64,000 nt of DNA, taken from contig NC_091675.1 in assembly GCF_042453785.1 (NCBI RefSeq), forward strand, positions 9,002,501 to 9,066,500, read 5' to 3'. Position numbers and translations under genes: made by a program. Of this stretch, positions 1 through 63,400 are shown one piece after another (within the stretch, counting starts at the first letter, position 1; the number at the start of each line of letters is the position of its first letter). The DNA comes from Malus domestica. Its lineage: Eukaryota; Streptophyta; Magnoliopsida; Rosales; Rosaceae. The notes beneath the pieces were generated by a model. It had not been told where the DNA came from. It ran no database searches and saw only the letters and a program-made list of their open reading frames with translations.

Positions 1-1961
1 CATATTTCTATGTTGTGTTCCATTCACGGCTCCCGCCTGCATGTGCTTGCGTGCCACCTCAAGTGGGAATGTCGCAGTACTTGAAATAGCACCGGCTGCT
101 GATCCAATTAAAAGGGTTTCAATGTTGCCGATCTTCTCCTGCTTGAGAAACTTGCGATAGGCTTTCCGTAATGTATCATAAGCATAGTAATTGGTGGCAG
201 CATATGGAATTACTCCAATAAGACTAGGGGCAAGACCTCTGTAGAGTTCTGCCGGTCCCTCTTCTCGCACTATTTTTAAGAATGCATCCAGAAGACCGTC
301 ATAAGCGTCTCTCTGCAAATATAATGACATAGTTATGTGATTGCTACAGCCATACTTGAGATAGGCACACACTTCTGCTAATCGTTACGTACCTGAATGG
401 TTAGCCGCGTCTTAATTAACTCAAGAGGGTATGTGCAAATTGTTGAGCTCACTCCAGCACAAGCACCTGCAATTAACGAGGCAGGAATTGGAAGTATGGG
501 CTCCTCTCCAGGTTTTGGTGACAGTTGCTTGTTAACCGTATCATAAGCAAACAGCTGCCAAAAAAGAAAAAGGTAGCAGAAATTCAAATACAAAACCAAT
601 TAAACATGCAGAATTGAAATCTTTAAATCTTTGTAATGAAAATCATATTCATGCAGGGAAGTTCCAACTGATTTTCTCGCCAAATTTGCGTTAACATAAC
701 ATGTACACACAATACAACAGCTATAGTACATTGAACAGGGTGCCTTAAATATTATAGTGCTTTTCCTCAATGATCAAATGGAGAACTGATTAGCACGTTA
801 GATCAACAAATTGCCCCAGCATTTCCCATTCTATAACTACTGAAGAGCACCATGCAACGAATTCAATTCCTCCAATTCACACAAGGTTCCTCCTTGAAGT
901 TCTGCATAAAGTAGTTTAACATACCTTGCAGAATGCAGATCATTTGACTAGAATGAAAAGCACAAACACGTGCAACTAAAAGCTACATCATACTACATGA
1001 TTGACAGTGAGAAAACAACTCTGAAAAAAGACCAGTGATCCCATAGAAAAAACATCATGATACCTTGTGGAACCCAAAGGCCAAGCTTTTCGGATTAAAT
1101 CAGAAATGTTCTCAATTATTAATTTCACCGACTGCTCAATGCTTATGGGACGCCCTTGATATGTTCAGAGAAACTAAATGCCACATGAATAAGTATGAAA
1201 CTTGACTTGCTCCTAGTTTCAACAAACAAAGGGAAACCAGCAGAACCCATATTACATCAAAAAGAACTTGACACTAATGCATTAGTTACACCTAAAACAG
1301 AACAAATCAAATCACTGACAAGATAAGCACACAAAAGTAAATATGAAACAAGTTGAAGATACCAGACATGTCATTCACCTAAAACAAGTTAATACGAAAG
1401 AAATCTTCCTACCTCTATCGCCTTGCTCGGTGCAACCCGAATCACATTGACTAGATTTCCCCTAAACAACCCCTTCCACCCATCAATTTTCATTATATCA
1501 TTGAAGACCTCAGTAGTAGATTTCCCACAATTCCCAACCATCAAATGAGTCCTTATCGTCTCCAATGGCGCCACAGCCGTCCGTGAAATTGCCCCGGCTA
1601 CTGCACCACTTATTAGCCTCCTCAGTGAAGGGTTAGCAATCTTAATCTTCAATTTAAGTCCGCCCTTCTTATTCTTCACCACCTCTTTCTCTTCCCCAAC
1701 CCCAAAACTCTTAATCCCCTCCACATACTTCATGTACTGCTCGGCATACGGAAGCTTCACGGCCCCGCCATCACGTCGTGGATTGGGAGGGTCCGGCGAG
1801 ACCCCGAAGCCCATCCCCACTTGGCTAACGCTTGCAAATAAGCCTCCGGGATGGCAACCCCCCTCTTCGGGACTCCATTGAAATCCCAAATTTCCCAAAT
1901 TGCAAACAGATAGAAACCCATCACTCCTATCATCGAAAACTTGGATTTGCTTCCTACCCAT
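1..1961 (-). CDS. BT1: Brittle1-type mitochondrial carrier family protein (adenylate/ADP-glucose transporter), 3' end outside window
   Basis: Mitochondrial carrier family member of the plant BT1 group; relatives move adenine nucleotides or ADP-glucose across plastid and/or mitochondrial inner membranes. Three exons are read from splice signals: 1413-1961 (residues 1-183), 393-554 (184-237) and 1-312 (238-341, running off the window). Both introns (858 and 80 bp) are GT/AG and phase 0, so the protein reads straight through. One carrier signature lies in each of the three repeats: PLETIRTHL (132-140), PLELIKTRL (226-234) and PLEVARKHM (320-328). The first ~110 residues are non-conserved and could hold a transit peptide. 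About 50-60 C-terminal residues are missing at the edge. The start ATG at 1959-1961 gives the usual BT1 length. Membership of the BT1 group is firm; substrate and compartment are inferred from relatives. Confidence 0.93.
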
Positions 1962-2233
1962 TGATCAAAACCTAATGTAAAACGCTTTCTTCTATGGCTT
2001 AGTGACAGACACTCGCATTATCTGCCACGGTTTCAAGCGGATTCACAGTGCTTGAGAGGCAAAGATTCGACTTTTAGCAAATGGGTAATCGAAGAATCCA
2101 TTTTTATTAGATGAGTGAGAGGAACAAACAGAAGATGGGGATACAGAATTTGGGTTTTGTTCTGATTCGGAAAAGGAGGCGATAAAAACGAAAGGGGGAG
2201 GAGGAGTGAGAGAGGATGAGAAAAATAAGGGGA

Positions 2234-3450: not shown

Positions 3451-4811
3451 GGGAAAATGAGTGAAAATTATGAAAAATCTGATGATGGTATGGCAATTGG
3501 ATATTTGTAAGAGTTTAACGGGATGATTGGCTAAAATAAAAGTCTAGGGTGGAAATGAACATGACTTACAAGTTTATGGAGTAAATAGACGAAAATGTCT
3601 AAGTTTGTCTAGCATACACAGTCAAAATGTATTTTGATGGTTAGAAAGCAATTTCATCCTTACCAAAAGCAAATCCCAAGTGATTTTAGTGTCCTATCCC
3701 TACCTCACAATTCTACCACCCCCAATTCACTCCACATGAGAAGGACTTGCATCCTCCAGATGACGTCATGGCATTCCAAATCAATAACACATCACCACAT
3801 GTTTTTAAATTTTAAACATAGCGTAACATGATTGGTTTGTAATATTGTCACTGTAACGTCTTAGTTTGATGTATGATCTTCCTCACTCACACACTTAACC
3901 GCACTTGATTATGAGTGTTGTGAATTGATTTCAGATGTACTTGAATAAATATTTTCTCATATATAAAATTTTGAATCCGAATCTCCCCTTTTCGTTGCCA
4001 AACCAACATGTCATAAACCTACTTCTTGATGTCCAATGAACAAGTTGAACTAACCCGACATTGAATTGTTTGGTTCTCATCAGCTTGTTTACCAGAATAT
4101 GTGATCACCCAATTTGAATCGAACTATTTGATAGTGATCCGTTTAGATGACGGATTGATTTTTGTTTTTGACATAATTAATTGAAGGAAAAATGTGAGAC
4201 ACAAGTTAAGAGAATTAAGTAATAATTTTTTTTACGATAATTATGAATTATACTAATTGCTGTATCTGGTTTTTTCAAAAGCGAATTGTTATTAGCATTC
4301 CAAAAATCTCATTCTACACTTCTCACAAGTGTACTTTTATTTATAATTATAAAAAGTTTGGAGTGCCAAATGAAATTTTTGGAGTGCTAATAGCAATTGT
4401 CTTTCGAAAACCTGCACAAGGTTGGATGCAAAATGGGAATATTGACAAGCTAGCTTTAATGGTGATTTTTGCTACACTTTTTGAGAAATCTAATTTCTTT
4501 CAGCATATATCACTCGTCACTTGAAACTTTCCAAAACCTAAATTAGAAATAAAAATTGTATTTGTGTGAGGATATGATGAGAAAAGAATGAAACAATCAA
4601 AACAAGGTCGTTTTGAGTTGTTTACATGGGGAGTTTGATGGTGGGAAAGAGCTTCAAACTCTCGATTTAACCCTTTTTAATGTTTCTCCACAACAATGTA
4701 TATCTTAACTCCATAAATTTATATTTAAAACTGCAATTTGATTTAAATATGGCCATAGTTTAGAGCTGCCAAATAGAGGAGCAAGTGAAGAGAGAACCAG
4801 GACTACAATTT

Positions 4812-4854
4812 GTCCCACATCGGCTATAAACAGCTAAACACAAAGCTTTATATA
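4812..4854 (+). promoter_or_regulatory. Pol III-type USE + TATA promoter of 7SL copy 1
   Basis: A perfect plant snRNA-type upstream sequence element, GTCCCACATCG (4812-4822), is followed after 24 bp by TTTATATA (4847-4854). This short USE-TATA spacing is characteristic of plant Pol III genes (U6, U3, 7SL); Pol II snRNA genes have about 10 bp more. The predicted start lies 30 bp after the first TATA-box base, at the 5' GCCGAGCT of the RNA. Confidence 0.88.
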
Positions 4855-4876
4855 CCTTGAGCAAAGAGCACCAATC

Positions 4877-5180
4877 GCCGAGCTAATTAACGCAAGCTTA
4901 TAACCCAAGTGGGGGCATCAAAGTGTTGGAACGCTGGTCTGGTCTCAGCTGGTCGGGTCTGTCGTGGCTCTATTCTGGCCCGCCCGCTCCAAGCCGGGAG
5001 TTGAGCCGTGTGGATTGGGCGAAGGCTCAGGCTTCACGGTTCCTAGAGCGGAGGGCACCGCGTAAGGCTGGCTTCACAGAGCAACGATCACCTCCCGCCC
5101 TTGGCAGTGGAAGGATAACGGGTCGGTGCCACCCGGATCCATCATGCCCCGCTGGACCGTTCCAATTGAACCAACGCTTT
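4877..5180 (+). ncRNA. 7SL RNA (signal recognition particle RNA), copy 1
   Basis: RNA scaffold of the cytosolic signal recognition particle, which targets ribosomes making secreted or membrane proteins to the ER. Recognised by the plant 7SL 5' end GCCGAGCT, the Alu-domain segment AACCCAAGTGGGGGCA, the central GC-rich helix region, and the conserved 3' half (GGCTGGCTTCACAGAGCAAC, then GGAAGGATAACGGGTCGGTG). Length is about 304 nt, normal for plant 7SL, ending in a T-run. Oddity: the Alu-domain U-turn normally reads TGTAA, contacted by SRP9/14, but here it is TATAA (about 4899-4903), so this copy may assemble poorly. Promoter and terminator look intact. Confidence 0.88.
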
Positions 5181-5182
5181 TT
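5178..5182 (+). terminator. Pol III T-run terminator of 7SL copy 1
   Basis: Five T residues directly after the 7SL 3' end, backed up by a second run of seven T at about 5186-5192. Confidence 0.75.
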
Positions 5183-5194
5183 GTATTTTTTTGC

Positions 5195-5790
5195 TTTCTT
5201 TACCGTAAATCTCTGTTTTAATTCGAATGCTTTTGTGGCGTATACCAAAATCCCAAATCATCTGACTCATTTAAACATCTGTGGTGCTGATTTTGGTGGT
5301 GCCGGCGACGCATTGCCGGAGCAGTGGTGGTGCAACAAAACTCGGAAAAAATGTTGACTTCGCTGAAAACATAGTTGGCGCAAATGCAATCGTCTTCCTT
5401 TTCGACAATGGCATTACAGCAATCTTGTTGAATGGCCGGTTATCGAGTCCGATAAGATACACAAATCTCATCGTAACAAGTAGCAGAAGCAGTGTGGTAA
5501 GCTCCAAGGAACTTTTCAAGCTTAGGATGGGGGGAGAGAGCCGGTGTTTTGGGTGGAGCAGGAGAGCTGGAATCGGAAGCAGCCAAGCGTTGTGTCAGTG
5601 CTTAAACAAAAGAGAAGGAAAAACACAGCAAGCACTCCTCCTTTCATCATCTTTGCTAAATTTGATGAATCACAAGTGAAATATAAGTGAGTTGAGTTGC
5701 ATGGTGAATGTCAAAACTTAAATTGATAATTATCAACATTTAAATGAGATTGATTTGATTGTATCGATCCAATTAGTTGATCGGCGTTAG
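5195..5790. other. Spacer between the 7SL copies, with a doubtful minus-strand ORF (5271-5519)
   Basis: The minus strand has an open frame of 82 codons with a hydrophobic stretch near its start, and overlapping plus-strand frames are also open. No domain or family is recognised and there is no convincing splice or promoter context. Probably non-coding spacer or an old gene fragment. Confidence 0.25.
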
Positions 5791-6235
5791 TCTCATCTCC
5801 TCCAGAAGCAAAATCCAAGTGTTTTAGTGTCCTTACCCAACCTACAGCCGCATCACCCCACTCGCTCCCACACCAGGTAGTTCTAATGGTGCTTCCTTTT
5901 CTCAACACTGAGTAATCTTATTATTTTTAATTTCTTGCAGGAACTTTAATCCATATACATGATCACTTGAAATTTTACCCTTAAATAAAAAGAAATGGGA
6001 AGATAATTGTGTGAGAGTATGCAGAATCTAAACTTTAGGAACACCACTTGTCGTTTTGAGTTTTTTTCTTTTGGGAGTTTTAATTGTCGATTCATCCCTT
6101 TTTTAATGTTTGTCCACAACAACGTAAATCTCAAACTCCCGAAGTTGCGATTGAGAAATACAATTTGATTAAATGTGGCCAAAATTTTGAGTTGCCAAAG
6201 TACAAGTTAAGAGAGAACCACAACAACTACAACTT

Positions 6236-6278
6236 GTCTCACATCGACAATCAGCAGCTATAAACAACGCTTTATATG
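6236..6278 (+). promoter_or_regulatory. Pol III-type USE + TATA promoter of 7SL copy 2
   Basis: USE-like GTCTCACATCG (6236-6246, one change from the GTCCCACATCG of copy 1) and TTTATATG (6271-6278), with the same 24-bp spacing. The RNA start is predicted 30 bp after the first TATA-box base, at 6301. The USE mismatch may weaken this copy. Confidence 0.82.
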
Positions 6279-6300
6279 TTGTGCACAAGCCGCACATCCC

Positions 6301-6605
6301 GTCGAGCTTAGCAACGCAAGCTTGTAACCCGAGTGGGGACATTAAGGTGTTGGGACGCTGGTTCTGTCTTAAGCCGGCCGGGTCCGATGTGGCTCTTTTC
6401 TGGCCCGCCCATTCCAAGCTGGGAGTTGGGCCGTGGAGCTTGGGCGAAGGCCTGGGCTCCCTGGTTCCTAGAGTGGAGAGCACCGCGTAAGGCTGGCTTC
6501 ACAGAGCAACGATCATTTCCCGCTCTCGGCGGTGGAAGGATAACAGGTCGGTGCCACTTGGATCCATCATGGCCCGCTAGGCAGTCCCGATTGAACCAAC
6601 ACGTT
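6301..6605 (+). ncRNA. 7SL RNA (signal recognition particle RNA), copy 2
   Basis: Second 7SL gene, clearly homologous to the first along its ~305 nt and with the same architecture. Its Alu-domain U-turn retains the canonical TGTAA (in GCAAGCTTGTAACCC), unlike copy 1, and the GTGGGG segment and the 3' half (GGCTGGCTTCACAGAGCAAC, GGAAGGATAACAGG) are conserved. The 5' end reads GTCGAGCT rather than GCCGAGCT. On RNA sequence it looks the more functional copy, although its USE carries one mismatch. Identification rests on recognition of the plant 7SL sequence; a covariance-model search would settle it. Confidence 0.88.
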
Positions 6606-6611
6606 TTTTTT
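6604..6611 (+). terminator. Pol III T-run terminator of 7SL copy 2
   Basis: Eight consecutive T residues immediately after the RNA 3' end. Confidence 0.8.
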
Positions 6612-6619
6612 ATGCTATT

Positions 6620-7590
6620 TCAACTTTTCGTTATTTTTAATTAAGGGCCTCCGGGTGCCATGGCCAATATCTTATAATGGGTTTTTCTTCTTTTTATTTT
6701 TTTTATAACAAATGATATTATCTACACTAAAGAGGTTGTGTTAAGCCTCACAATGATCTTGCAATAACTTGGTTAAAATTCGTCTATGATGATAATCGAA
6801 TATAAGAGATCTCACTTACAAGTGAAGACATATCATTAGATTGTAGTACTAAGTGACAATGTTTTTTTTTTTCTTTCCCAAATGAATGATTTCAAACTTT
6901 GAGTGCATAGTGGTATACATATGTGGTTAAAAATAAGAAAATTTAATTTTAAACTTTGTAACTTACACGCAAAAAAGGGATTAAGAATATCCTTAGAGAC
7001 TTTGTTCCGGCTTAAGTGGCTTGGCACAATTTCAACTTCGTCCAATGGTGGCGCGGAATTTGTATCAAAGATTACCATTTATCTTATTTTTGTTTGACGG
7101 AAAAACTTAAAACATATTGTCTTGTGTTGGCTTGCGGACTCGAATTCAATCTTTCGTGCATCAACTATTTGACGAAAATGTAGATGAATACGAATTTATA
7201 GAGTACATTCTATATTTTGACAAAACGGTAATTTAAACTACTCTAATCTATGGAGGAATTAGGTCAGTGTACTGGGTCATATATGATAATGTCTATCCCA
7301 AGTTGTTCCAAACTTTGGACATTGAAATCCCTTGCTTTTGTGTGCACAATGAGGAAGGGAGGCCTGGAGAAAACAGTAGGATTGGAAACGCAAACTTGAT
7401 CTGGAAACCAAAAGAGATTGCTGCAATCTTTCATATGAGGATGAGGATCTCCAAAGCATAATTGTATCGGTAGCTCCGGAAATCACTAAAGGATAGATTT
7501 TAATCAAATGGTCAAAAGTTGTATAACTACTACTTTTAAATTTGTTGAATTCCAACCTATCTAAGCTGTCATCAATTGTCGAGACTAGAT
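6620..7590. other. Intergenic, no gene recognised
   Basis: AT-rich. Short open frames (for example 7267-7461) resemble nothing known. Confidence 0.55.
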
Positions 7591-7596
7591 GACAGA

Positions 7597-7687
7597 TGTT
7601 GGTTAGATCAGTTAGTTAAGCCAGTGGCACTCAAGTTCGAATTAGATCGGTTAGTTAAGCCAGTGTGCTCACTGCACTCAAGTTCGA
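7597..7687. repeat. Direct duplication with tRNA/SINE-like flavour
   Basis: Two copies of a ~40-bp segment (AGATC.GTTAGTTAAGCCAG ... ACTCAAGTTCGA) lie back to back. The CAAGTTCGA ends resemble a tRNA box B. Further on (about 7865-7920) TAGCCTAAGGT and CAGGTTCAAAT could be a decayed A-box/B-box pair of a tRNA-derived SINE. Weak evidence. Confidence 0.35.
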
Positions 7688-8115
7688 TTTCTTTTTCTCA
7701 TAAATTAGAGTTGTTTAAAATATCATTATGTTAATTAAAAAAGAAAGTTTGACAGTATGCTGTAATTAGCGGGTTTGGTCACTTCTATCATGTTCATACA
7801 CAGTGCCTAGTTTGGCTTGGATTTTCTCTTCTATATACATGAAGTAAAAAAAATCAACTAGTTCTTAGCCTAAGGTACATTGATCCCTTCTAAACGTTGA
7901 AGTCTCAGGTTCAAATTTTCCATGCTTCCATTGATGAAAAAAGGGTACCAAAAATAGTTCACAATTAAATGATTTATAAAAAAATTTGCGTTCACAAGAC
8001 TGATTGTTGGTACATTTCAGAGTCACTATCACCTTCTAACGTCGGCATTTGCAAAAGCAAATTTAAATTAGTAAAGTGCTTCTGACATGTTTTTTTTCTT
8101 TCTTTTAAAAAGCAG

Positions 8116-8299
8116 GAATTAACTTGGCTGCTAAATTGTTAACTTGGCTGCTGAACAATTCAACAGCCAGCTTATACTCAATTTCATGTAAACACGTATT
8201 TAAGTTTTGATTTTTTTAATTAAAATTTGAACACGTGTTCACATAAAATTAGGTATAAGCAAGAATAGCTGCTAATTGTTGAGCAGCCAAGTCTTGTTC
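8116..8299. mobile_element. 184-bp foldback MITE with a 10-bp target duplication
   Basis: Perfect 10-bp direct repeats TAAAAAGCAG flank the element (8106-8115 and 8300-8309). Inside, arms of ~75 bp pair (left 8142-8215, right about 8220-8292; shared ACTTGGCTGCT, CTTATAC, ACACGT). The left end also holds a 20-bp direct duplication (8121-8140, 8141-8160). A 9-11 bp duplication is typical of Mutator-like elements, so a MULE-derived MITE is the best guess. Confidence 0.8.
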
Positions 8300-8642
8300 T
8301 AAAAAGCAGCATTCACATTACTTTCGTGTTTCGTCCAAAAAAAACTTTACTTTCATGTGATGTTTTTTACTTTATGTCATGAGACTTCGTAATTAGCTCA
8401 TATTTTCCGAGGTAGTTAATACCCTTTTCTGAAAGAACCCCATGACAGCTTTAAAAGGCTGAGAGGAATAAGGACTCATATGCAACCCCTGGGCATGCCA
8501 ATGACACTTTTGACATCCTGAGAGATGCATGCAAGTATCCTTACTCTAGAAGATGTTGAACTGTTTGACTTGATTTTTCAACCTGCGAATGATTCTTACT
8601 CCATCGCAGAACAGTTTTTTAGCAGTTGAACATTTTTAAATC

Positions 8643-16751: not shown

Positions 16752-17320
16752 TAAGAGCATGTTTGGTATTCTATTTAGAAACTTGGACTTGAAAATTTTG
16801 ATTTGTTCAAAGAACATAGTTCTAACTACAATTCATAAGACTCAAAAATTCATTTGGTATGAGAACTTGAAACTTATTTTTAGATCACTATCAAATATTC
16901 TAAGACAACTCCGCCATGTAAGTTTATCTTACATTGCCGGTCCCAAGCCCGGATAAAGGAGGAGGGGGAGGGCGTCAGGTAGTCGACAGCCGGCACTCCA
17001 TGATCACGTCGAATCCTTATGAAAATGAATCCAGAACGAAATCGCGCTAAAGCTAGGGCGTCACCCGTAAGTGGCGCGCTGTGTGGCCCGAGCACAGTGA
17101 TAAGTGAGCAAGGGTCGCTGTATCTCCATCAGCACCCGGATGCAGTGTTAAATGAGTAAGGGGGCTATAGAAACTTCTTTTCGAACGACTCCACTCAAAG
17201 TTGTTTGGGAGCATATGCTCCTATCAACTTTACACGGGACACACAAAAGAAGTACTTTGATCCTATTAGACGGGGAAGGGTGAAGAAGCTAGGACAGAAG
17301 GGTAGAGTTCAAGAGAGCAA

Positions 17321-29299: not shown

Positions 29300-30349
29300 T
29301 CATTTCTGGGATTCATTCCTCTTCCCGATTCCTTCCCCTTCCCTCTCCTCCAAGAGCCTGCTGGACTCCTCGTCGGGCTGCGCGACCTTCTTCTGCGCAT
29401 CCTTGGCCTTCAGAGCCTGCAATTTAGAGTGGTTGTAGTAGGCAACCCCCAAAAACGCGAGGCCGTAGCCGAACAGATTGATCGGGGTCACGGTGTCCTT
29501 GATAACGGACCACGAAAAGGCGATCAGGAGCCAATCTTTCACCACTCCGGCAACATTCATCGTCAGCGCCGAGGTCTTTCCGACGAGCAAGAACACGGCG
29601 AGATTCAGAGCAAATGCGCAGACAGAATTGGTCCCAAAAATCACGAAATCGAAATGGAAGCTCGAGGAATCGCGCAGAATCGGGTACTCGACGAAGATCC
29701 AGGGGACGAAGAGGAAAGCCAGACAGCAAGGTGCGACGTAGTAGAGAGATGTTATGGGGTTGAGGGTAATGCCTTTGGATGTGAGGAGGATCTGGATCAA
29801 GACAAGGCGGGTGGCCTCGAATGCGACTGCGCCGAGCTGGAGCATGACGCCCCAGGTGTCGAATCGGGCCTCTCCGTAGGCGGCGATGGCGACGCCGATG
29901 GAAATGGAGATCATGTTGACCATGGTGTCAGTCTTGAAGGACTCCTTTTTGAAGGAGACGCCAATGGAGTAGACCGCGACGGGCATGAGGGCCTTGAGCA
30001 TCTGGATGAAGGAGACGGAGAGGTAGATGTAGGCGGAGTTGGAGAGCCAGAGGGAGAGGGAGTAGAGAGCGCCGATGGGGACGACGGAGGAGAGGTAGAG
30101 GTCGCGGGACATGGTGACGGGCTCGACGAGGCGGAAGACGCGGACGAGGAGGAAGGCCAGGGAGGCGCAGAAGGACATGTGGATCATGGTGAGGGAGATG
30201 GGGAAGGGCCAGTTGTACATCTTCTTGTCGAGGATGTATTTGTTGTAGACGATGACGGTGAAGGAGAGGAAGATCCAGATGGCGACGTAGGTGTAGGAGA
30301 GGAGGATCTTTTTTATCACCCCCTCGCTCAGGGAGCCACCTTTGCCCAT
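29300..30349 (-). CDS. Sugar-phosphate/phosphate translocator (TPT/NST family), 349 aa, intronless
   Basis: Integral membrane transporter of the plant triose-phosphate/nucleotide-sugar translocator superfamily, closest in my reading to the Arabidopsis At4g32390/At2g25520 group, likely in Golgi or other endomembranes. Members exchange phosphorylated sugars or nucleotide sugars; the substrate of this subgroup is not established. One exon, full family length. It starts [20 protein letters not shown]; about ten hydrophobic segments follow. Conserved blocks are [57 protein letters not shown] and the C-terminal [20 protein letters not shown]. The acidic C-tail ends in KRNESQK; no transit peptide is visible. 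It has strong third-codon GC bias, unlike its AT-rich surroundings. No lesions. Confidence 0.95.
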
Positions 30350-30479
30350 TTTGGAGGTGGGTTTTCGCCGGTGGTGACGGTGGCGATGGCCGTGGTGGGG
30401 GAGAAAGGGAGAGAAGTGAGGAGGAGGAGGAGCAGGAGGAAGAAGTCAGATTCAAAGTGATAGAAGAAGGGAGTGAGAG

Positions 30480-39657: not shown

Positions 39658-42600
39658 TTTTTTTTTTTTTTTTTTTGAAACAGAACCAAGGCCGAAGCCG
39701 AAACAGCAAGAGAGCCAACGAATGGCGAACACCAAACAGGCACAAAGAGAAAAGACGATGGAAGGGGATACAAACAAGCAGACACTACAACCAGGTTGAG
39801 TGTCACCCCAACCACCGCAACTACAACTCAAGGCGGACAAGGAAGACCATCCTTATTCAGAACGTGCACCAACGAAGATGGGGGTCTGTCAACCCAAACC
39901 CGATCACACATCTCCGGGCAGCCAACCGACGCAAGAAAGTCCGCCAAAGAATTCGCTAATCTTGGAACCCAAGACCAGCGACAGAACTGGAAAGCTTCAC
40001 TCAACTGCTTGACCCGAGCCAAGATAGGAAAAGCCTCCCAACTGCCAGAATCCAAATTGCCAGAAAGACAAGAAATGGATTCACGAGAATCCGACTCCAA
40101 AATGACAGAGCTACAGCCCAAAGCGGAACCCAATTCACAGCCACGCAATAACGCACAAGCCTCAGCCGCAGCAACACTGGGGGACAAGATAGCATACCTC
40201 GCAGCCGCCACAAAACTCCCCCCCTCCGCCCGCATAACCACCCCAACAAAACCCGATTTAGACCCCTGAGACCAGCTAGCATCAACATTGATTTTAAAGA
40301 AAGGAGAGGTTGGAGGGATCCACCGAGGAACTAAACACTGCCGAGCAGGACCCACCAAATTTTCAATCTGCGACAAACCCTCGGCCTCCCAGTAAGACCC
40401 GACAGCAAAGGCAACCTCCCTCAAGACGGACATAGGATGAACGGGGACCTGATTAAAAACAAAGTTGCAACGAGCTTTCCAAATACTCCAACAAGTAAAA
40501 GCAACATAAGATTGAACCCACGTTACCTCAGCCGAATACCCTAGAGAAAGATTGAACACAGCCTGCAACCAATTCGCCCACGAAGTGATACCCTCCCTAT
40601 CCAACCGATAATTAAGAGCACCACCAAACCAAATGGCTGCAACGCACGGACACATGAGGAATAGATGCTCCACAGATTCATCCTGGCAAAGACAAATGGG
40701 ACACACTGGGGAAGGGGAAGAACGCCGACGGAAGAGCACCTCTCTAGTGGGCAGGGCCTTATGCAAGGATAACCAAAAGAAATGACGGAGTTTATGAGGC
40801 CCTCGCAAAAGCCAGACCATGCGCCATAACTGCCTTGGAACCAAGCGAGCACCATGCTGGCGTTGATCCCGTAGCCCGACAGACCGAGATTGCAGCCAGT
40901 GGTAGCCCGATCGAACTGAATACTTCCCATTCTTACTCACATCCCAAACTAGACGATCTTGCCGACAAAGATCACCAATAGGGGTAAGACAGATAGCATT
41001 TTGCTCCACCTCCGATATAAACTCTTGCAAAAAACTAATATCCCACGTATGAGACTCCGGCCGAATAAGAGACTAAACCCTTAAGCTAGGAGTAACCGCA
41101 ACCTCCCCAATCGGAACAGGATGTCCCACAGGTAATGATGGAAGCCAGCGGTCCACCCAAACACGTACATCCGCTCCACTCATGATTTGCCAGTGAGAAC
41201 CATTCCGTAAAACCTCTCTACCAATCAGAATACTACTTCAAGCCCAGGAAGCCCTCCCACCTTTTTTGGCATCCCAAAAAGAACAGTGCGGAAAATAACG
41301 AGCCTTAAGAACTCGAGCCCAGAGGGAATTCGGATCAGTGATCAACCGCCAACACTGCTTAGCCAACAAAGCGTCATTAAATTCACCGAAATTCCGAAAA
41401 CCCAAACCGCCCATCATCTTTGGAAGACCAAGAACAGCCTTAGAAACCCAATGTGTCTTCCTCCGATCCCCAAGACTGCCCCACCAGAACCCAGCCACCA
41501 AAGCATCCAACTCCTGACAGACAATAGCGGGAAATTTAAAAATGTGCATCGAGTATACAGGGATTGCTTGAACCACAGCCTTGATCAAGACTTCTTTCCC
41601 AGCTCGGGATAAAGTACACTGTTTCCAACCTTGCAACTTACCCAGAATTTTTCCTTTAATATAGGCAAGACCACGTTTTTTAGATCGCCCCCAAATAGTT
41701 GGAACACCTTAATAAGTTCCAGGATTAGCAACCGCTGGAATGCCAAGAACATTAACCAACTCATTGGAAACTTGCATAGAAACATTCGCCCCAAAGTAAA
41801 CACTCGATTTTTGCAAATTAACTTGCTGACCAGAAGCCTCACAGTACCACCCCAGAATGTCCACCAGATTCCGACAATTTTTAGTATCAGCCTTTAGAAA
41901 AAGAAGAGTATCATCCGCGAAAAACATATGAGAAATGACGGGCCCCGATACTCCAATCTTCACTCCGTCCAACAGATGCGAATCCACTGCCTCTTGAAGT
42001 AGAGAAGAAATGACCTCTCCAACCATCAGGAACATATAAGGGGAGAGAGGATCCCCCTGCCTGAGACCCCGAGAAGGAGTGAACTGCTGTCCGGGTTGAC
42101 CATTAATGAGGACCGCAAACTGCACCGAAGACACACACCTCATAATTAAATGCCGCCATTCACTGCAAAATCCCATCCTAGCCATAATAGCATCAAGGAA
42201 GTCCCATTCCACACGATCATAGGCTTTCTGCATATCCAGTTTAATACCCATCTTAAACTTATTTCTAGCTTTTCGCCCTTTTAAGAACTGAAAAAGCTCA
42301 TGAGCTATGCCAACATTATCATGGATCATCCGACCAGCCACAAAGGCATTATGCGAGGGAGAAATAATACGCGACAGAACACCCTTTAACCGATTCGCAA
42401 GAACCTTAGCCAGCACCTTATAAGAGTAATTGCAAAGACTAATGGGACGAAATTGCGAAACCGACTCCGGATGTGAAACCTTAGGAATTAGAACCACGTG
42501 GGTAGCATTGAGCGTACACGGGTTGGCAGATTCATGCATCAAAGATTTGATCAAGCTGTTAACATCATCCTTCAGCTGCTCCCAAAAGGATTGATAAAAA

Positions 42601-42975
42601 ATCCCTTGGAAACCATCCGGCCCGGGAGCTTTGAGGCTGCCCATATGTAACGCAGCCTCCTGAACTTCCTGCTCGGACACCGGCGCAATTAACGCCTGAT
42701 TCATAGCCTCAGAAACATCCTGGTGAAGACAATCCAAGATAGAACCCCAATTCCTAGGACCCCCCGACTGGAATAAGGAGATAAAATGATCCTCAACTAA
42801 CTCCCGGACCCTGCGGGGATGCTCAACCCATTGCCCATCCCCATCCATCAAAGTGAAGATCGTGTTCCGCCTGCGACGTTGAAGTGTAGATTGATGGAAG
42901 AATTTAGTATTTGCATCACCCTCACGCAGCCATTGAACACGAGATCGTTGATGCCAATAACTTTCCTCCGGAGGT
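39658..42975 (-). mobile_element. L1-type LINE, 5'-truncated, with poly(A) tail
   Basis: Minus-strand element ending in a 19-base poly(A) (the T-run at 39658-39676). Coding sequence runs from about 42970 leftward with no endonuclease or ORF1, so the 5' end was lost, as usual in target-primed integration. No target duplication could be matched between the two flanks. Confidence 0.88.
39828..42970 (-). pseudogene. LINE reverse transcriptase - zinc-binding domain - RNase H polyprotein, broken
   Basis: Starts inside the linker before RT (SYWHQRSRVQWLREGDANTK). RT motifs: LKAPGPDGFQGIFYQ, FRPISLCNYSYKVLAKVLAN, KLDMQKAYDRVEWDFL, SRGLRQGDPLSPYMFL and the catalytic FFADDTLLFL (near 41910). It continues through RT thumb (LSRAGKEVLIKAVVQAIPVY), the zf-RVT zinc-binding region (near 40700: CPICLCQDESVEHLFLMCP) and a C-terminal RNase H with INVDAS (near 40290), AEACALL, ILESDSRES and NSLADFLAS. 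Stops near 41711, 41237 and 41075 interrupt the reading frame; catalytic residues of RT and RNase H remain. The last 400 codons (39828-41030) are still open. Confidence 0.92.
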
Positions 42976-43963: not shown

Positions 43964-44035
43964 GCGTTTGTAGTCCAACGGTTAGGATAATTGCCTTCCA
44001 AGCAATAGACCCGGGTTCGACTCCCGGCAAACGCA
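43964..44035 (+). tRNA. tRNA-Gly (anticodon UCC)
   Basis: Folds as a complete nuclear-type tRNA: acceptor GCGTTTG/CAAACGC with discriminator A; D-arm GTCC-AACGGTTA-GGAT; anticodon arm ATTGC-CTTCCAA-GCAAT with TCC at positions 34-36; T-arm CCGGG-TTCGACT-CCCGG. No intron and no encoded CCA. A TTTTT terminator follows directly (44036-44040). Internal A and B boxes are intact. Reads GGA codons. The sequence is of nuclear, not plastid, type. Confidence 0.96.
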
Positions 44036-45824: not shown

Positions 45825-48421
45825 TCATGAGGCAGTGTATGAAGCATTTCTAGAGCCAAATTCAGTCGTTGGAGCAGAAGAAGATACTGATAAATAAACT
45901 GCACTCGGCCTCGGCCTCGTATCCTGCAATTCGAATAGCTTCTCATTAGGGTTCATAAAAATTTGCACCACCTTCCTTATCTTTGGTCTTAGTATGGAAT
46001 ATGTGTGCAAGCATGCAAGCCCTACAATCAAGGTCCTCTTTACTTGTTCCTCCTCATATTTTCCGTCCAACGTTTGGTCCACGCAATCAAGCAACGCATT
46101 TTTCGCGTACAAATTCCAAACGTGTTCTACTAAACTGTGATCGTCCATGAACCCTTTTGATCTTCTCCCACATACCACTTCTAGTACCACCATTCCAAAG
46201 CTATAGACATCTGATTCTGGGGTAGCTTTCGCGGATAACCCTAGTACTTCCGGGGCTATGTACGCTGGAGTTCCTGCCAAAGGGATTGTAATTGATGAGT
46301 CTTGGAACATTAGTCTAGCTAGCCCGAAATCGCCTAGATGAGCATTGAAATTGGAGTCCAACATCACATTATTTGGTTTAATGTCTCTGTGCACCACGGG
46401 GTTGCCACACTCTTCGTGGAGGTATAGTAATGCTGATGCCAATCCTGTTAAGATCTTGTACCTTGTTTTCCAATCAAGGTAGGGTTTTCCAATGTATTGC
46501 TCGAGGCTTCCATTAGGCATGTATTCGTAGACCAGGAAACGATGGTCGTATTCGTGGCACCAGCCTTGGAGTTGCACTATGTTCTTGTGCCTTAAGCGCC
46601 CAATGGTGCATATTTCTGCCAAGTACTCCCTTTCACCTGTTTTGGATTTTGAACATACAAATTGTCTCAGTAAACAGAAATCAAAAGAAACTATTAGGAA
46701 AATAATTGCAGTAAAAAATGATGCATTGATTATATTTTTGTACCATATTGTGTGTAATATTTGTGACATATGCGTGACACGAAATGTAGTACAAGAATGT
46801 GGTTTAAATGGTTGTCATGTAATTCTTTTCTTTCCGGTAAATTAGAAAACAATGCAACTAGAACAAACCTTTTTTGGAGGTTGCTGAAATCTTCTTGACA
46901 GCAACAGTTTTAGGAGGATGTGATGAGAGGATGCCTTTGTAAACAACTCCAAATGCACCTGCACCCAGCAGATTTTCCTTACTGAAGTTCTGAGTGGCAA
47001 TTAAAAGCTGTTTGTAAGTGAACATTTCCGGGGCATTTGCAGCTGTTCTTGACTGGCTTTCTATGTCCTCTCCATCCCTATGATTTCTCTTCACAACTTT
47101 CAAAATCAAAGGGTAAGTGCAGGCTATCAAAATTGCCACACCCAAGAAAATAGGAAGATCAACGGCCCATATGTTCTTAATATTACTGTGATGATCTTTG
47201 TCAGGAGGCCCTAAGGGTATTCCTGGTAACTCCACTGATGTGAAAACCCAATCAAGGACTTGATGGGTCTCTTGGAGGGTCCCGCTGGAGGCGGTGAAGC
47301 CAACATAAACTGATCTTGGGACAACTTTGGACATGTCAATTGATTGGTTGAGGATGCTGATCAGTGTTGCTGGGATGTCAGTGTACCCAGCAGAAACTTG
47401 GAGGATCTGACTCCAAGCATCATAGCCAATTGTGAATCTGATGTCTCTTCCACTCTTGAGGTCAATTCCTGTGCTGTTGAGACTCTTTGCCACAACTGGG
47501 TTCATTACGCTTGTTGTGTCAATGGCAATGTGGTTCCCATCTGGATCATCAAATTCTTGGTTCATGAAAGTATCTAGCTCAATGGCCATTTGTTTAACCA
47601 CCCCACCTAATTTTTAGACAACATCAATCAAGTATGTAAAAAAAATGTACATGCATATGCATAATACGTACGCTCGCGCGCGCGCGCACACATATATATA
47701 TATATATATATTCTACAATACCAGAGTTTTTAAATTTGGTAAATTCTATATTTCTAATCATGAAACGTAGTTGTAATAAACCACATTATATGACGTGTCA
47801 AGAGTTCATTATAACTGGTCTTGATAATAGACAAAACAAGTAAATTTTACGTTTACTGTGAAACTAGTGTAACTAGTAAATGTGGTCCGACTAGCATTAG
47901 TTAAAAAAAAATTACGCTGCCTTCCAAATCTAGAAATAAAACTTTAATAGGAAATATAACTAACCTTGAGTTGATCTATCAAGGAGTCCAAGCAACGAGC
48001 CATAGCTATCAGGTGGAGAAGGACTAGTGTCCTGTGCAAAAACAAATGCCATTCCATCCCCAGATCCAGTTGTGTTTGGAAAGGAAGAAATCCTAACAGT
48101 AAAGGTGGTGGAGATAAACGCCGGCCAGGCAATCACCGGGAGGTGATACAAAACCCTTCCAACCTTATACAATTGTAAGGAAGAGGATGAACTAGAATTG
48201 GCTTCTTGTGGCTCTGGTATGAGGTTCAAATATCCATTATTTGCGGTCACCGAGCCCATGCATATTAGGTCACCATTGTTACAGCTTTGAGGAGTGAAGG
48301 TGGGGAAGGAGAAAGTTGTATGTGTTTGATCGTTCATGGAGTACACAAAGGCTTGGCTGCTGATGAGAAAGGTAGAGAAGAAAAGAAAAAACATGGTTAA
48401 CTGTAAATTGGAGGGAGCCAT
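45825..48421 (-). CDS. L-type lectin-domain receptor kinase (LecRK), 668 aa, three exons
   Basis: Plasma-membrane receptor kinase with an extracellular legume-lectin domain; relatives act in immunity and cell-wall/eATP sensing. Exons 47965-48421, 46869-47606 and 45825-46636; both introns are GT/AG, phase 1, and the joined frame is open. Signal peptide 1-24; lectin domain about 25-280 with GDGMAFVFA and IELDTFMNQEFDD...GNHIAID; one membrane span about 301-323; kinase about 360-640. Kinase residues are all present: GAGAFG loop (367-372), Lys in VAVKK (390), HRDIKPNN (Asp483), DFG (501-503), APE. It therefore looks catalytically active. A TATA-like element lies at 48464-48473. The ligand is unknown. 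Confidence 0.95.
47675..47711. repeat. Compound microsatellite (CG)n(CA)n(TA)n in LecRK intron 1
   Basis: Alternating CG, then CA, then ~10 TA units, all inside intron 1 of the kinase gene. Such purine-pyrimidine alternation can adopt Z-DNA. Confidence 0.9.
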
Positions 48422-48463
48422 AGAGGTTTTGACTTAAAATTGGGTGGATGTTCGTATGTGCAT

Positions 48464-60459: not shown

Positions 60460-63400
60460 AAGAATAAGGGTACAACAATATCAGGAAAATCAGATGTAAT
60501 TGAAGGCTCGGGTAAAGCCCATATTATGTTACCAAATAGAACAATATTGTCCATATAGAATGCATTGTATGTTACTCGATCTACTCGAAACTTGTTGAGT
60601 TTCAAAGACATACGTTTAAATGGATACCACATTGAAACGAAAAGTGCAGAAAATGTGGAGTATCTATGCATTACCTTCAATGATACCCAGAAGCATATAT
60701 TGGAGAAGTTGCGTTGTTTGTCGAGTGGATTGTTTTATACATACATAAAGACAGTTGAATCACATACTGTCATGAACCAGAAGTTCATTGATTCAAAAGT
60801 TTACATGCTTTGGCATGACTGTCTGGGTCACCCAAGATCTACCATGATGCGTAGAATCATTACCAACTCTAATGGACATCCATTATTGAGCAGACATATT
60901 GCTATCTCAAATGATAACCCTTGCAAGGCTTGTTCTCAAGGGAAGTTGGTAATCAGACCATCACAACTAAAGGTTGATGTTGAATCCCCATCATTTCTGC
61001 AAAGAATTCAAGGGGATATTTGTGGACCTATTCAACCATCTTGTGGACCATTTCGATATTTTATGATTTTGGTTGATGCATCTACCAGATGGTCACATGT
61101 TTGTCTCTTATCTACTCGAAATTGAGCTTTTGCGAGACTTCTTACTCAGATAACTAAGTTACAAGCACAGTTCCCAGATTATCCCATTAAGTCAATCCGA
61201 CTTGATAACGCTGGTGAATTTACGTCTCAAACTTTTGATGATTATTTCATGCCATTGGGCATTGATGTTGAACACCATGTTCCTCATGTCCATACTTAAA
61301 ATGGTTTGGCAGAAGCATTGATTAAGCGGCTTCAGTTAATAGCTCGCACTCTGCTTATGAAAACCACATTGCCAGTTTCTGCATGGGGACATGCCATCCT
61401 ACATACTGCATTATTGGTTCGATTGAGACCTATAGCCAACCACCAATACTCATCAATACAACTAGTGTTTGGGCATCAGCCATACATTTCACATTTACGA
61501 GTTTTTGGTTGTGCTATTTATGTGCCTGTTGCACCCCCGTAACACACTAAAATGGGACCTCAGCGTAGACTGTGAATTTATGTGGGTTTTGATTCACCAT
61601 CTATCATTAGATATTTGGAACCCTTGACAAGTGATATGTTTACAGCTCGTTTTGGCTGATTGTCACTTTGATGAGACAATTTTCCCGTTATTAGGGGGAG
61701 AAAAGACTGTTCCAGAAGAATGGAAAGAGCTGACATGGGTTGTTCCCACATTGTTTCATTTTGATCCTCGAAGCATTCAATGTGAAAATGAAGTAAAAAT
61801 GATCGTTTATCTTCAAAGCATTGCCAATCAAATGCCATATGCATTTAATGATGCTATGAAAGTGACAAAATTGCATATACCAGCTGCAAATGCATCTGCA
61901 AAAATTGATGTCCCTATTGGACAAAATAAAATCTGGTGCACGCCTGAAGCGTGGTAGACCACCAGGTTCAAAAGATTCAGATCCTCGAAAGAGAAAGACA
62001 AGGGCACATTTTAATCCAAATGAAATCATTCAGGAAAAGAGAACGAATGACAAATCTACAATTCATGATTCTGGACTTCCAGAAAAAGAAAATGTCCTTG
62101 ATGAGACACATGTCCCTGAAGAGACAAAAGTACATGAAAGCAAAGAAATCTCCATAAATTATGCATGTACTAATGAATTTTGGGATCAAAATAAAATAAT
62201 CATTGACGATATGTTTGCATTTGTAGTAGCCACTGAAATCATATTAAGTGATGATATTGAGCCCCGCTCTGTTGATTAATGTAAACAGAGACAAGATTGG
62301 CCTAAGTGGAAAGATGCAATCCAGGTAGAATTAAATTCCTTGGAAAGGCGAAATGTTTTTGGACCAGTAGTCCAAACCCCACCTGGTGTAAACACCATGA
62401 GTTACAAATGGGTATTCACAAGGAAACGCAATGAGAAAAACGAGATTGCAAGATATAAAGCACGACTCGTTGCACAAGGTTTTTCACAAAGACCTGGAAT
62501 TAATTATGAGGAGACATACTCTCCTGTAATGGACGCAATTACATTCCGTTACTTAATAAGTTTAACGGTTTCAGAAAAACTTGACATGCGACTTATGGAT
62601 GTCATCACCGCGTATCTATATGGAGAATTAGATACTGACATATATATGAAAGTCCCAGAAGGACTTAAGTCGCCTGAAACATCTAACAAATCACGAGGTA
62701 TGCTCTCGATCAAATTAAGGCGATCATTGTATGAGCTAAAACAATCTGGATAAATGTGGTATAATCGTCTCAGTGAGTATTTGATCAAAGAATGATACAT
62801 CAACAATGTCATTTACCCTTGTGTGTTCATTAAGAAATCTCATTCTGGATTTGCTATAGTGGCAGTATATGTTAATGATATGAGCCTAGTTGGAACTCCT
62901 GAAGAGTTACATAAAATTGCTGAATATCTGAAAAGCGAATTTGAAATGAAAGACCTTGGAAAAACGAAATTTTGTCTCGGCCTGCAGATCGAGCATTATG
63001 CTAGTGGAATTTTGGTTCACCAATCAACTTACATTGAAAAATTTCTGAAGCGATTTGGTATGGACAAAGCTTATCCACTCAGCACGCCAATGGTCATTCG
63101 TTCTCTGGACATTAAGAAAGATCAATTCCGTCCAAAAGAAGATGATGAAATAGTCCTTGGTCCAGAAGTACCATATCTGAGTGCAGTAGGTGCTTTGTTG
63201 TATGTAGCACAATGTACTAGACTAGATATAGCTTTTTTAGTCAACTTGTTAGCAAGGTATAGCTCTGCTCCAACAATTCGTTATTGGAAGGGTGTCAAAG
63301 ATGTATTGTGATACCATCGTGGGACAACAGACATGTGTCTCTTCTACTCAAAGAACTCCACAAATGACCAAGTCTTTGTTGGATATGCAGATGCTGGTTT

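Follow-up and report, generated by a model that had tools for sequence, protein, structure and literature searches.

Two tandem 7SL (SRP) RNA genes in Malus domestica, one with UAU at the SRP9/14-contacting UGU motif

Two 7SL (SRP) RNA genes, referred to as copy 1 and copy 2, lie in tandem in the analysed stretch of Malus domestica DNA (64 kb, hereafter the window), both with the promoter layout of Pol III genes. In the reading that we favour and regard as fairly probable, they are tandem paralogues belonging to a 7SL gene family that is loosely conserved. Pol III would transcribe both from the upstream sequence element (USE) and the TATA box, and the T-run would end the RNA. Copy 2 would give rise to a canonical SRP RNA, perhaps made in smaller amounts because of a USE mismatch, and copy 1 to an SRP RNA with UAU at the SRP9/14-contacting UGU, from which poorer SRP9/14 binding would be expected. 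Judged by sequence, the odd base of copy 1 is a variant common to C11a, a well-kept copy on another contig, and not a private defect.

Gene structure and promoters of the two copies

The genes including their promoters occupy positions 4812-6611 of the window and comprise the following features, together with a segment of the spacer between them.

4812..4822, + strand: USE of copy 1, GTCCCACATCG, no mismatch to the consensus RTCCCACATCG, at -65
4847..4854, + strand: TATA box of copy 1, TTTATATA, TATA at -28, placed as in 9/9 top U6 genes
4877..5181, + strand: 7SL (SRP) RNA copy 1, RF01855, 249.1 bits, E 6.8e-73
4899..4903, + strand: copy 1 UGU motif of the Alu domain, reading UAUAA and not UGUAA, with RNA position 24 (A) at 4900, common to C11a
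5178..5192, + strand: T5 (5178-5182) and T7 (5186-5192) of copy 1, resembling Pol III terminators
5320..5528, no strand given: spacer segment, also present between the C8 copies (blastn, 79% over 210 columns)
6236..6246, + strand: USE of copy 2, GTCTCACATCG, one mismatch (C to T, position 4), at -65
6271..6277, + strand: TATA box of copy 2, TTTATAT, TATA at -28
6301..6606, + strand: 7SL (SRP) RNA copy 2, RF01855, 252.5 bits, E 5.6e-74
6323..6327, + strand: canonical UGUAA of copy 2, G at 6324, agreeing with UGUNR
6604..6611, + strand: T8 of copy 2, resembling a Pol III terminator

The first-pass annotation started the pair at 3640, which includes a further upstream duplicated block with its core at about 3663-3722 and 5802-5862. 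Upstream of copy 1, about 760 bases (window about 3741-4504) have no copy 2 counterpart in the MAFFT alignment except short chance-like pieces, and a MITE-like inverted repeat is found in this region (4272-4320 / 4362-4410, 49 nt arms, 82% complementary).

Both RNAs were matched to the Plant_SRP covariance model RF01855 over model positions 1-305 of 305, using cmscan with Rfam 15 (gathering score 105 bits), which bears out the two full-length copies of the earlier annotation. They resemble RF01855 in full length, all helices, the helix-8 region with its conserved loop ...GUAAGGCUGGCUUCACAGAGCAACGA..., the GNAR-type helix-6 loop (GAAG in both) and the USE/TATA promoter with T-run, and differ from it by UAUAA at the UGU motif in copy 1 and one USE mismatch in the promoter of copy 2. 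The helix-6 GNAR loop is presumably the SRP19 loop, and helix 8 the SRP54 region. UGUNR at the Alu-domain three-way junction fails in copy 1, whose membership in Plant_SRP was assigned by whole-model score and not by this motif.

Standard pairs are formed at 102/123 consensus pairs in copy 1 and 105/123 in copy 2, with 105 in C11a and 76/109 in the decayed copy C8a; the structure behind these pair counts was that of copy 1 as aligned to the model, which biases them towards copy 1. Of 125 columns without variation in nine other near-full copies (excluding C11a), copy 1 departs at 5; the figures are 3/125 for C11a (excluding copy 1) and 4/122 otherwise invariant columns for copy 2. The nine other near-full copies, each compared with ten, showed 0 to 10 invariant columns changed, and the figures were 18/114 for C8a and 7/94 for C5a2 (each versus eleven).

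Scores far below those of other 7SL genes, which the first-pass annotation would have taken as a sign of pseudogenes, were not seen, as 249.1 and 252.5 bits lie within the 199.2-271.3 bits of the 11 near-full listed copies. By loss of structure, promoter or ends neither copy qualifies as a pseudogene, in contrast to C8a. Chance matches or plain pseudogenes were rejected, with the full-model scores, the promoter layout and the lack of any further USE within one mismatch in the window against them. As far as the sequence can tell, both copies are real and probably active 7SL genes. A point against this is that both-sided, pair-keeping changes are few, at 4/37 differing pairs from copy 1 to copy 2 and 2/47 in the control comparison of C8b to C8a, counted on the same copy 1-biased structure.

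The USE consensus RTCCCACATCG was taken from PMC9845283, where dicot promoter strength is described as set by USE quality. On both strands of the 64 kb, the consensus with ≤1 mismatch was found at exactly two sites, 4812 and 6236, each with a TATA 37 bases beyond it, which is more than would be expected by chance. Between the USE and TTTATATA in copy 1, and between the USE and TTTATAT in copy 2, there are 24 bp. On inspection of the sequence, the USE, TATA, Pol III spacing and T-run were present at both copies, as had been annotated.

For U6 as a control, 48 matches were listed in the genome, 30 loci were examined and the nine at 113.8 bits were counted; the remaining 21 of the 30 loci, many of them plainly degenerate, were left uncounted. 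All nine top U6 genes have the USE at -64 or -65 and TATA at -28. Their USE is perfect (GTCCCACATCG) in seven, and the other two read ATCCCACATCG, which fits the consensus R, and TTCCCACATCG. For U2, 8 loci of 41 matches were used, and the best USE was at -74 to -76 (0-3 mismatches) in 6/8; of the remaining two loci, one had its best USE at -66 and the other had none. Because the USE at -65 and TATA at -28 are placed as in U6, in contrast to -74 to -76 in U2, both 7SL copies have a Pol III layout, and the USE, TATA, spacing and T-run at the RNA end of type-3 Pol III genes are found in each. Copy 2 differs from the nine top U6 genes in its C-to-T change at USE position 4, which is absent from all of them and occurs in one U2 gene (L059), a point against the favoured reading if that gene is active.

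The UAU variant within the 7SL family

A search of the genome (651 Mb, 19 contigs) listed 24 matches to RF01855, with at least 13 over the gathering score, and a DNA search with copy 1 listed 15 places. The 13 copies compared here, all from these lists, are C13a, C11a, C5a, C5a2, C6a-d, C8a, C8b, C5b, C15-1 (copy 1) and C15-2 (copy 2). A USE identical to GTCCCACATCG is present in 7/13 (C11a, C5a, C5a2, C8b, C5b, C6c and C15-1), one mismatch in three (C13a, C6a and C15-2), two in C6b, three in C8a and four in C6d. In nine of the 13, the TATA begins at -28. UGUNR is kept in 10/13, with UAUAA in C15-1 and C11a and UGCAA in C6d, and the helix-6 loop is GNAR in eight, UUAA in the four C6 copies and AAAG in C5a2. 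All four features (USE, TATA, UGUNR, GNAR) are intact in C8b and C5b; the remaining 11/13 listed copies deviate somewhere. A perfect USE and UGUNR occur together in five listed copies (C5a, C5a2, C8b, C5b and C6c), of which C5a and C5a2 have no TATA at -28; C5a2 also carries deletions, and the helix-6 loop of C6c is altered.

This comparison bears on the proposal of the first-pass annotation that the two flaws are complementary, copy 1 being transcribed but defective and copy 2 the functional one. The named deviations are real: copy 1 has a mismatch-free USE and UAUAA where the Rfam consensus is UGUAA, and copy 2 retains UGUAA and has a single USE mismatch. Their pairing does not hold up, as the same G-to-A change is found in the C11 copy and USE mismatches occur in 6/13 listed copies. 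With most copies deviating somewhere, the complementary pattern needs no separate explanation and looks like coincidence within a loose multigene family.

In favour of a division of roles, apart from the flaws themselves, are dispersed, truncated 7SL fragments on C7 and C6 that match copy 2 best (88% and 90%, against 81% and 84% for the runner-up; L018 1577-1792 at 88% and L017 1000-1182, minus strand, at 90%), which would fit a copy 2-type RNA being made and then copied. A DNA route is equally possible for these fragments, which share long flanks and show no poly-A tail. Nothing was seen to connect the flaws, copy 1's change recurs in C11a and other copies are free of both, so that a working/non-working relationship between copies 1 and 2 is not supported as a couple and is very improbable. 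The L017 and L018 fragments sit in longer stretches with mutual matches at about 87-91%, and are possibly one old 5'-truncated copy that was later spread with its surroundings.

C11a (L010) has UAUAA, a perfect USE, TATA at -28 and 261.4 bits, the second-highest score listed. Its RNA is 86.9% identical to that of copy 1, from which it differs in lying on another contig, as a single gene in the stretch examined, with distinct far upstream sequence. At -200..-66, C11a is 67% identical to copy 1, versus 49-62% to four other compared copies (57-96 columns each). From copy 1 to C11a, both-sided pair-keeping changes were counted at 3/30 differing pairs on the structure from copy 1's alignment, among them the helix-3 pair adjoining the motif, which is C-G in copy 1 and U-A in C11a. 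That base 24 of copy 1 was misread in sequencing is unlikely, the same base being present at the C11 locus.

The tree of the 13 listed RNAs has two deep clades (100/100) and does not settle the order inside copy 1's clade; base 24 requires a minimum of two changes on it. Grouping C15-1 with C11a was not rejected (p-AU 0.277 for the RNA, 0.511 with 200 bp upstream, 9 rows), and on upstream sequence alone the two were grouped with 94/93 (6 rows), below the support mark of the tool. One origin of UAU, two origins and exchange between loci are not told apart by these trees. In a limited literature search, from which absence from print is not claimed, neither a plant 7SL alignment nor a base-24 mutant was found. 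The invariance of UGUAA in plants is based on the Rfam consensus and a general statement in PMC8137916, and the genes read here come from one genome.

According to PMC8137916, the UGU motif is the SRP9/14 recognition site, so weaker SRP9/14 binding would be expected where it reads UAU, as in copy 1. In human cells, SRP14 knockdown is described in PMC2494554 as destabilising the particle and lowering 7SL RNA; by this analogy across kingdoms, A24 RNA might be short-lived and copy 1 RNA might perhaps not accumulate. Both points would also suit copy 1 as a young pseudogene or silent copy, in which base 24 marks lost constraint and the RNA is unmade or quickly degraded, as would the decay of C8a, its positional counterpart on chr8. 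We consider this unlikely, since copy 1 has a perfect USE, TATA and T-runs, scores 249.1 bits, keeps most of its pairs (on its own alignment) and departs at few invariant columns. Among the other intact members of its clade, all but C5a have longer RNA branches than copy 1, and the same base is carried by the 261.4-bit C11 copy.

The effect of base 24 on folding was predicted with ViennaRNA on a naked 44-nt RNA without tertiary contacts, which says nothing certain on the particle. In these folds G24 can pair with C3, competing with helix 2, and A24 cannot. For C15-1 and C11a, the predicted probability of helix 2 was 0.99 with the native base and 0.76 with G24. A24 raised predicted helix-2 formation in 11/11 copies tested; the effect of the G to A swap was large in copy 2 (0.14 to 0.73) and small in C8b (0.00 to 0.04) and C6c (0.00 to 0.12). 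Pairings other than C3-G24 dominate the G24 folds of C6a, C6c and C6d.

These predictions raise the prospect of a functional class of UAU 7SL RNAs that has been retained (copy 1 and the C11 copy), with a 5' domain that folds more easily in the absence of protein and with altered elongation arrest in the SRP form that it serves. The change is common to two copies with perfect USEs and high scores, A24 favours the predicted helix 2, and the helix-3 pair near the motif is exchanged on both sides. Set against this, there are two copies only, seen in a single species and from genes alone, for which single and independent origins are not distinguished. Both-sided changes are not significantly commoner than in the decayed control pair, and the fold is that of a naked 44-nt RNA, dominated by other structures in three C6 copies. 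We give such a class a small chance, and equally little to an extended form, in which the UAU class would be expressed from intact Pol III promoters with reduced elongation arrest beside a second class, the four C6 copies with UUAA in helix 6.

The preferred reading remains that of tandem paralogues in a loose family. This 7SL gene census of one plant genome illustrates that a single-copy 'defect' has to be weighed against all members of the family. Should the UAU copies be expressed, they would be natural plant SRP RNA isoforms with a changed SRP9/14 site, and the need of every SRP for elongation arrest would be directly testable in vivo. The UAU variant common to C11a and the UUAA loop in helix 6 of the C6 copies are worth following.

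The four linked C6 copies lie at 27.478-27.499 Mb (L012 2001-2304 and 4348-4651; L015 1501-1804; L016 1501-1812) and have helix-6 UUAA versus GAAG in the Rfam consensus; C6a, C6b and C6c have TATA at -28 and 230-252 bits. In the top-scoring listed copy, C13a (L009, 271.3 bits), a USE-like TTCCCACATCG was found at -66 and TATA at -50, not -28. Exact-pattern scans for 7SL of other plants gave zero matches in viral contigs and a single bacterial match in genome contigs (L051), which was left out of the comparison. A search for SRP partners gave SRP19 exon matches on C13 and C16; for SRP9 there was no match in this genome, and none in 14 control genomes either.

History of the tandem pair

The order of the C15 pair is repeated at the C8 locus (L013) by C8a and C8b, with blastn matches to both genes, the spacer and downstream pieces within 7516-8460. 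As order, spacer and downstream sequence are colinear, the tandem pair predates the separation of these two segments, which we equate with the apple tribe's whole-genome duplication. The best reading of the C15 pair is an old tandem duplication of potentially active Pol III genes. The upstream gene is decayed on C8 and both genes are kept on C15: C8a has UGUAA, scores 135.8 bits, and has three USE mismatches and a lost 3' end, and C8b has UGUAA and is canonical in the four checked features.

By position, copy 1 is the counterpart of C8a and copy 2 that of C8b. A grouping of copy 1 with C8a is rejected by the RNA tree (p-AU 0.0228), and the C8b RNA is closer to copy 1, with 87.2% identity against 81.6% for copy 2. 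Because RNA similarity does not follow position, we infer that exchange between the tandem copies probably took place.

Other features of the window

A match resembling the Type-P1 twister ribozyme was found at 16905-16968 (+) with 48.2 bits (E 1.2e-7), under the gathering score of 67.2, and a tRNA gene at 43964-44035 (+) with 72.9 bits and, by eye, the anticodon TCC (Gly). Protein-coding frames include an uninterrupted 381 aa frame of the triose-phosphate-transporter family at 29300-30445 (-), a mitochondrial carrier piece at 1389-1964 (-), and kinase and legume-lectin-domain frames at 45825-48433 (-), which may be one lectin receptor kinase. Reverse transcriptase frames of LINE type (RVT_1, zf-RVT, RVT_3) are present at 39828-42974 (-), and one of Copia type (RVT_2) at 62280-62753 (+).
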